A program made the translations under genes and the position numbers. The notes under the pieces are model-generated. The model saw only the letters and a program-made list of their open reading frames with translations. It was not told where the DNA came from and did no database searches. Source: Roseimicrobium sp. ORNL1 (GTDB lineage Bacteria > Verrucomicrobiota > Verrucomicrobiia > Verrucomicrobiales > Verrucomicrobiaceae). Taken from it: a stretch of DNA of 64,000 bases. The stretch covers positions 7,192,001-7,256,000 of the forward strand of contig NZ_CP049143.1 in assembly GCF_011044495.1 (NCBI RefSeq), in the 5' to 3' direction. Shown here in pieces: positions 34,417 through 42,468 of the stretch. Within the stretch, counting starts at the first letter, position 1. Each line of letters starts with the position of its first letter.

Positions 34417-35730
34417 TCAGATCGCCGTGTGCAGCCAGAAGGTCACGGTGTCATTCACATTCGCGATCATGCGCACCTGGCCGTCCTGGGAGATGACGTA
34501 GCCCACCACCTGCGGCTCCACGGCGCAGAGGCGGTAGAGGGAGCGGTGGCGGGTGCCGTCGTTCTGCACATTCCACCGGCTCACGAGGTTGCGGTCCAGG
34601 TCGTGGGACTGCTCCACGTGCACCACATTCATGTCCACGCGGATCTCGCCGCCGAAGCCGACCACATTAAACCCGTGCTCGAGCACCAGGGCGCCATCCA
34701 CCTGCATCATGTCTGAGTACAGGCGGGCGAGCTCGAAGAAGGACTCCTCGAGATTGTCCAGCTCGGGGTCGGTGCTCTTCTTGAAGCAGTTCCACGCGTC
34801 TTCCACGGAGGAGCCGCCGGGGCACAGTTCTCCGAGGCGGCGCAGCATGGACTGGATGAGAAACTTCACCCGGTTGCCGGCGGATTCTGAGGCTGCGAGG
34901 TATTTGCAGTCGATCCAGCGCTCGGCCACGGACAGGGACTCCTCGGCACTCTTCGTCATGGGGATGATGACCAGGGTGCCGCCATGGCCGCTGGCGCGCA
35001 CGAGGCTGACGATGCGCCGGAGGAACTGCAGGGCGATGCGATGAATGAGCTCTGCATACGCCTCGATGGTGAGGGTCTCGGGCAGGGTGTGGGACCAGCT
35101 CTCCCGCACGAGGCGGTGACGCAGGTCGGCGAACCGCTCGCTCATGAGTCCGGATTGGAAAACATCCATGCGTGGCCCGTGGAACTCCCGCCCACGCCAC
35201 TCGGCGAGCAGCTCATAGTTCTGGTAAAAGAGGAGCCACCCCGGATCGCGCACATGAATCGAGGGGAACGGCATGCTGATGCCGCCCGGCTTGCGGCCCC
35301 CGGCCATCAGGTTCAACCAGCGAGGCCCTGTGTTCAGGATGCCCCAGATGCGGAAGCCGCGGTCTTTCTCCGGCCACACGGCGATGATGGAATGGAAGTA
35401 GCTCGCCGCAGGACTGAGCCGCTTGATTTCACCTGCGGTGAAGGCGTGCGTGCTGGCGAAACGAATGGCGTGGATGCCATCCGGAGGTCCCTCCAGCGCG
35501 GTGAAGTCATCCGGCGGGGCAATGAGGATGCGCGCCCGCACCACGCGGCCTTCCTCCTTCAAGAGGCTCGCGGTGTAGAGCAGGTCACACAGCGCCCGAA
35601 TCTCCCCGAGTGAGGGCGAGTCCTCCCGGCCACCGACCATGTGCGAAATCTGTGCCACCAAACTGGCGAGCGAGGGCTCTGGTCCGGCCATGGATGACGC
35701 AGGTCTGAGAGCGGGGGTGAGCGTGGCCAT
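34417..35730 (-). CDS. DAC (diadenylate cyclase) domain protein with large N-terminal region
   Basis: A 437-residue protein. The C-terminal about 95 residues look like a DisA_N/CdaA catalytic domain, which makes cyclic di-AMP from two ATP: DGA at 345-347 (VDGALVLEHG) and GTRHRS at 392-397 (NDGTRHRSLYRL), followed by GYVISQDGQVRMIANV in the place of VSEETGxIxxA. The N-terminal about 340 residues carry no membrane helix or DisA HhH domain. They match in general plan the sensor-type N-terminal domains called DACNV (recalled, not checked) and include HAIRFASTHAFTAGEIKRLS and RDPGWLLFYQNYELLAEWRG. ATG 35730 is selected; the frame is open further, but that stretch overlaps the start of the divergent cytochrome gene. 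Confidence 0.8.
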   Translation of the reverse strand: MATLTPALRPASSMAGPEPSLASLVAQISHMVGGREDSPSLGEIRALCDLLYTASLLKEEGRVVRARILIAPPDDFTALEGPPDGIHAIRFASTHAFTAGEIKRLSPAASYFHSIIAVWPEKDRGFRIWGILNTGPRWLNLMAGGRKPGGISMPFPSIHVRDPGWLLFYQNYELLAEWRGREFHGPRMDVFQSGLMSERFADLRHRLVRESWSHTLPETLTIEAYAELIHRIALQFLRRIVSLVRASGHGGTLVIIPMTKSAEESLSVAERWIDCKYLAASESAGNRVKFLIQSMLRRLGELCPGGSSVEDAWNCFKKSTDPELDNLEESFFELARLYSDMMQVDGALVLEHGFNVVGFGGEIRVDMNVVHVEQSHDLDRNLVSRWNVQNDGTRHRSLYRLCAVEPQVVGYVISQDGQVRMIANVNDTVTFWLHTAI

Positions 35731-41901: not shown

Positions 41902-42468
41902 ATGTCTGCTTCGCGAGCCAAGAAAGAGCCGCTCTACCTCGTACGGAACTCCACCATTCATGGTCGTGGTCTGTACGCGCGCTCCTTCATTGAGAAAGAC
42001 ACTTGGATCGTGCAGTACGTGGGCGAGAAGGTGGACAAGGATGAAAGTGACCGGCGCGCCAATGCGCTGCTCGAATCCTCCAAGGAGAACGGTGGCGCCA
42101 AGGTGTACATGTTCATCCTTAATGACAAGTGGGACATCGATGGCGACGTGGAATGGAACGACGCCCGCCTCGCCAACCACTCCTGCGATCCCAATGTGGA
42201 AGCACAGACGTGGGAAGAGAAGGAAATCTGGTTCGTGGCCCTGCGCGACATCGAGGCCGGTGAGGAACTGACCTTCAACTACGGCTTCGACCTCGAGCAT
42301 TGGGAGGAACATCCCTGCCGTTGTGGCACCGAACGCTGCATCGGTTACATCGCCGCCGAGGAATACTGGCCCACGCTCAAGCGCAAGATCGCCGGCAAGA
42401 AAGCCGCCGCGACTCGCAAGCGCAAGATGGCGTCCTCCGCCACGGCCCTCACCCAGGCCAGCGAGTAG
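41902..42468 (+). CDS. SET-domain protein lysine methyltransferase with basic tail
   Basis: A 188-residue SET protein that would transfer methyl groups from S-adenosylmethionine to lysine. Motifs: GRGLYARSFI (residues 21-30), the core NHSCDPN (92-98), GEELTFNYGF (120-129) and a post-SET zinc-type Cys cluster CRCGTERC (139-146). The last 28 residues are Lys/Arg/Ala-rich (LKRKIAGKKAAATRKRKM), like histone H1-type tails, which suits binding to nucleic acid. SET proteins occur in several bacterial groups, probably acquired from eukaryotes (established knowledge); the substrate here is not known. Confidence 0.9.
   Translation: MSASRAKKEPLYLVRNSTIHGRGLYARSFIEKDTWIVQYVGEKVDKDESDRRANALLESSKENGGAKVYMFILNDKWDIDGDVEWNDARLANHSCDPNVEAQTWEEKEIWFVALRDIEAGEELTFNYGFDLEHWEEHPCRCGTERCIGYIAAEEYWPTLKRKIAGKKAAATRKRKMASSATALTQASE

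Follow-up and report, generated by a model that had tools for sequence, protein, structure and literature searches.

A DACNV-domain protein with a divergent diadenylate cyclase domain in Roseimicrobium sp. ORNL1

The gene and its surroundings

Within the window, the whole stretch of 64,000 nucleotides that was analyzed, lies a minus-strand gene for a protein that joins an N-terminal DACNV domain to a C-terminal half related to diadenylate cyclases (DAC); it is called the DACNV-DAC protein below, and its features are listed in Table 1. The genome that carries the window measures 7.96 Mb in a single contig. Translation is read from an ATG at position 35730 to a stop codon at 34417 to 34419, and this start is backed by a relative from the same genus, in which the frame is open for just six codons upstream of the same methionine. 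A 589-amino-acid reading of the open reading frame was rejected: its upstream part overlaps a divergent gene, and the same-genus orthologue does not keep that part open. The dN/dS ratio against that orthologue, the single pair used, is 0.06 (synonymous sites are near saturation in more distant pairs), indicating purifying selection on the gene.

Table 1. Coordinates of the DACNV-DAC gene and of the domains and motifs of its product
Feature	Window positions	Strand	Remarks
DACNV-DAC protein gene	34417..35730	minus	437 aa; single copy in genome; no conserved operon partner
DACNV domain, residues 37-132	35335..35622	minus	Pfam PF21751, E = 5.3e-24, 84.7 bits vs cutoff of 27
Conserved middle region, residues 136-221	35068..35325	minus	V160, P163 and F200 near-invariant; no Pfam match
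Divergent DAC (diadenylate cyclase) domain, residues ~222-437	34420..35067	minus	Pfam DAC in 25/28 members; hhalign E = 6e-7
HGGTL, residues 249-253, counterpart of GALI motif	34972..34986	minus	G250 invariant
DGA motif, residues 345-347	34690..34698	minus	D345 and G346 invariant in 28 members
GFGGEI, residues 358-363, family specific	34642..34659	minus	F359, E362 and I363 invariant
GTRHRS motif, residues 392-397	34540..34557	minus	G392, R394, H395 and R396 invariant
ISQDG, residues 413-417, replacing (V/I)SEE	34480..34494	minus	S414 and D416 invariant

Upstream and divergent lies a DUF1549/DUF1553 cytochrome gene (PSD1/DUF1553) followed by a DUF1501 gene, and a calcineurin-like phosphoesterase (metallophosphoesterase) gene converges on the DACNV-DAC gene; a GDPD gene is also among the window neighbors. 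Over the neighborhoods compared, no operon partner was conserved that would point to a shared pathway. Relatives were found in neither viral contigs nor phages, so there is no sign that this is a phage gene, and the lack of PADLOC and PHROGs matches leaves a role in defense without support. A ketol-acid reductoisomerase match was dismissed as short and due to chance (NCBIfam E = 0.005, PDB E = 0.57; 15.5 bits versus a cutoff of 713). Elsewhere in this bacterial window, the product encoded at positions 41902 to 42465 of the plus strand matches Pfam SET (E = 4e-25) and is a SET-domain protein.

A DACNV domain joined to a divergent DAC domain

The original prediction described a cyclase motif set behind 340 N-terminal residues of unknown type, which would amount to a novel sensor. 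A profile search changes this part of the picture. The DAC-like region begins at about residues 222 to 250, leaving some 220 residues ahead of it, and these include a DACNV match that passes the PF21751 gathering score, the sole domain of this protein above a Pfam cutoff and one present in all 28 family members examined. Pfam labels DACNV a "probable sensor domain" (PF21751 entry), and two copies on Hymenobacter plasmids carry the NCBI name "putative sensor domain DACNV-containing protein." The domain is thus neither unknown nor novel, and the resemblance to DACNV-type cyclases named in the original prediction was borne out by the same match; by its sequence, the protein belongs to a family already named in databases. 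The predicted absence of membrane helices and of a helix-hairpin-helix (HhH) also stood, with a best 19-residue hydropathy of 1.29 compared to 2.47 in the CdaA of the same genome and no Pfam HhH match in the protein. No paper using DACNV in this sense was found in the literature searched; the name probably stems from the comparative genomics work of Burroughs and colleagues, which PMC7288161 cites.

For the C-terminal half, the evidence comes from the family rather than from the single sequence. Against this protein alone, the Pfam DAC model (PF02457) gives an E value of 0.17 and 11.9 bits, below the gathering score of 27, and the other DACNV proteins examined also fall below this cutoff. Across the family, the DAC model matches 25 of the 28 members, at best with an E value of 1.6e-5; any family besides DACNV and DAC is matched by three members at most. 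When a profile of the C-terminal half was aligned by hhalign to a profile of DisA and CdaA, the probability was 92.2 with an E value of 6e-7, and the score of 49.2 compared with at most 23.9 for 100 column-shuffled decoys and 15.1 for a reversed control; the N-terminal half gave a probability of 0.1 against the same profile. The alignment pairs DGA with DGA, RHR with RHR, and SQD with SEE or SRR. A first hhalign comparison using Verrucomicrobial CdaA sequences alone had reached a probability of only 7.8, and the relationship became clear after DisA and more diverse CdaA sequences were added. A profile search of the PDB returned no match for the family, and AlphaFold runs gave pLDDT values of 36.5 for the whole protein and 47.1 for residues 215 to 437, low because just one homologue was supplied in each run. 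On these profile comparisons, the C-terminal half is a divergent DAC domain, as had been predicted. It has additional residues on either side of DGA: some follow the GALI-like motif, and about 16 precede RHR.

Conservation within the family follows the active site. The DGA, GTRHRS, and ISQDG motifs lie at the residues originally given, and DGA and GxRHR occur in the order expected of a DAC domain; when the protein was shuffled 200,000 times with its composition preserved, 15 of the shuffles contained a DGA followed by GxRHR at a spacing of 30 to 60 residues. Among 28 aligned sequences with identity down to 21%, 25 columns are invariant, and 12 of these fall in the DAC motifs or in GFGxEI, including the positions marked in Table 1 for the GALI-like, DGA, GTRHRS, and ISQDG motifs. 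In a wider set of relatives, the aspartate of DGA is missing solely from an apparently broken Hymenobacter volaticus copy. That plasmid gene (L021:7809-9147) now consists of two separate reading frames, one annotated as a DACNV protein and the other as a hypothetical protein. In another genome, the DACNV-DAC architecture is part of an 874-residue open frame (L008:1345-3969, genome G007) that continues for about 400 residues past the DAC domain, possibly with an extra output domain.

The third motif had been presented as a departure from the SEE of canonical enzymes. ISQDG is indeed present, and the departure is weaker than claimed. In Listeria CdaA, Ser122 of S-E-E is on a phosphate, Glu123 takes part through its main chain, and Glu124 is on the metal (PMC7288161). 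S414-Q415-D416 retains the serine and an acid, with Asp416 aligned to the metal-binding Glu124, which suggests that Asp416 could serve as the metal-binding acid in place of glutamate. Solved DisA sequences have VSRRR and VSHSM at this motif. Because serine and acid are kept and SEE is not universal, as the S-R-R and S-H-S of DisA illustrate, SQD appears to be a conservative form of SEE.

A second difference lies between DGA and RHR, which are separated by 49 to 51 residues in the DACNV family versus 32 to 33 in canonical enzymes. GFGxEI occurs in all intact members (the first G is S in one, and the third residue is A in one) but is absent from the canonical cyclases compared. By an ungapped residue count rather than a structure, E362 sits 17 residues past the DGA aspartate, at the position of Leu88 in Listeria CdaA, a residue that contacts adenine via its main chain (PMC7288161).

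Pathway context and distribution

To our knowledge, c-di-AMP signaling has been little studied in the phylum Verrucomicrobiota. The genome examined here contains a canonical CdaA (TPLHDGG, GLRHRAG, and VSEETG) and a PgpH-type 7TM-HD protein. Because of this ordinary CdaA, the DACNV-DAC protein would be accessory in this bacterium, whose c-di-AMP supply does not depend on it. A c-di-AMP riboswitch lies in the same genome on the minus strand (G000:C1:6611074-6611244, locus L113). CdaA, the PgpH-type protein, and this riboswitch make up the remainder of a c-di-AMP pathway, a context that favors the function proposed below.

DACNV is patchy, found in 30 of 387 genomes of the order and in 10 of 388 sampled across the phylum. 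Canonical DAC is nearly universal in the order (357 of 387 genomes; 259 of 269 of good quality). Of special interest is one genus, g22, in which all four genomes (88 to 95% complete) have a DACNV-DAC protein and no canonical DAC was found in any of them. If genome gaps are treated as independent, their product puts the chance that all four would miss CdaA through incompleteness at about 3e-5. Six other genomes of the same family, compared directly, all have CdaA. Genus g22 keeps PgpH-type proteins, and in the two g22 loci read, glmM has no adjoining cdaA. Gene content therefore makes the DACNV-DAC protein the only candidate c-di-AMP synthase detected in genus g22. A genome from another family, G302, has the same DAC pattern, and together these cases trace to one or two events in evolution and do not constitute a statistical association. 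Two genomes (G004 and G005) have neither CdaA nor DACNV, so the absence of CdaA is not always paired with DACNV. In Firmicutes, cdaA adjoins glmM, and canonical cdaA adjoins a glmM-like gene in the Verrucomicrobiota loci L106, L109, and L001.

Proposed function and comparison with known cyclases

We propose, with a probability of roughly 70%, that the DACNV-DAC protein works as a soluble synthase of a cyclic dinucleotide, most probably c-di-AMP, and is regulated by its sensor part. DACNV and the adjoining middle region would sense some intracellular (cytoplasmic) signal and control the face-to-face meeting of two DAC domains. One ATP would sit in each DAC domain, where Arg394, His395, and Ser414 would contact the phosphates, Asp416 the metal, and Asp345 the ribose, and the facing domains would join two ATP molecules into c-di-AMP with release of pyrophosphate. 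In this bacterium, such a protein would provide a second, conditional input beside the housekeeping membrane CdaA; in the related genus without detectable CdaA, it might be the sole source of c-di-AMP.

A catalytically silent DAC-fold sensor, binding ATP or c-di-AMP and acting via its DACNV part, would account for the subthreshold Pfam DAC score, the long extra loops, and the bona fide CdaA in most carriers. All active-site motif residues are nevertheless invariant despite low overall identity, and inactive copies tend to have lost RHR or DGA, making this reading improbable. Far harder to credit is the view that an unrelated protein matches the motifs by chance, or that the gene is decaying: the single-sequence DAC match (E = 0.17) would permit it, but it is contradicted by the profile-profile result, the DAC matches across the family, the low dN/dS, and the conserved reading frame.

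Other doubts concern the product. The loop lining the adenine pocket differs, so the substrate may differ as well, and a DAC-fold enzyme whose GFGxEI loop shifts base selection could make another cyclic or linear nucleotide, such as a guanine-containing dinucleotide. The restriction of GFGxEI to this family and the invariant E362 at the Leu88 position speak for such a shift. The Leu88 contact is made by the main chain (PMC7288161), however, and a different side chain might therefore leave base choice unaffected; the match of E362 to Leu88 is a residue count, not a structure; and the remaining motifs all match those of ATP-using enzymes. We consider a changed base unlikely. The broader proposal, that DACNV forms a separate cyclase branch in which GFGxEI reshapes the base pocket, a signal other than c-di-AMP is made, and CdaA has been replaced in genus g22, is quite doubtful.

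As a sensor-coupled synthase for c-di-AMP, the DACNV-DAC protein would be a soluble candidate from a family with neither a PDB match nor a paper in the literature searched. Three points make it of interest: no experiments on the family were found, one genus apparently depends on it, and GFGxEI singles out Glu362 as a candidate residue for base selection. If cells of genus g22 contain c-di-AMP, their DACNV proteins are the candidate source.

Compared to known systems, the DACNV-DAC protein shares with CdaA/DacA the DGA, GxRHRxA, and Ser-x-acid motifs and similar phosphate and metal residues. It differs in having the probable DACNV sensor instead of N-terminal membrane helices, a longer distance between DGA and RHR (49 residues, against 32), GFGxEI where CdaA has A-A/G-C-x-(L/F)-P, and no glmM neighbor. 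Like DisA, it is soluble, with DGA, GTRHR[ST], and a third motif other than SEE, but its DAC domain is C-terminal instead of N-terminal and it lacks an HhH or other DNA-binding part. It differs from CdaS, according to Pfam matches rather than a CdaS alignment, in that DACNV and not autoinhibitory helices precedes DAC.

DacZ_P-type DAC proteins are likewise soluble, with a named probable sensor domain before DAC; their sensor domains are different. Two such proteins, at L097 (genome G168) and L098 (genome G183), combine PTS_EIIA_2, DacZ_P, and DAC, with RHR changed to RHS and DGA to DGC or DGG, and may be examples of dead copies. Both genomes also carry a DACNV gene, with RHR intact in G183; the G168 copy ends early in the retrieved contig. 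The DACNV family (PF21751) itself offers the same N-terminal domain, architecture, and C-terminal motifs, shared by relatives in Verrucomicrobiota and on two Hymenobacter plasmids, and the copy described here is an ordinary member of that family, with nothing to set it apart.
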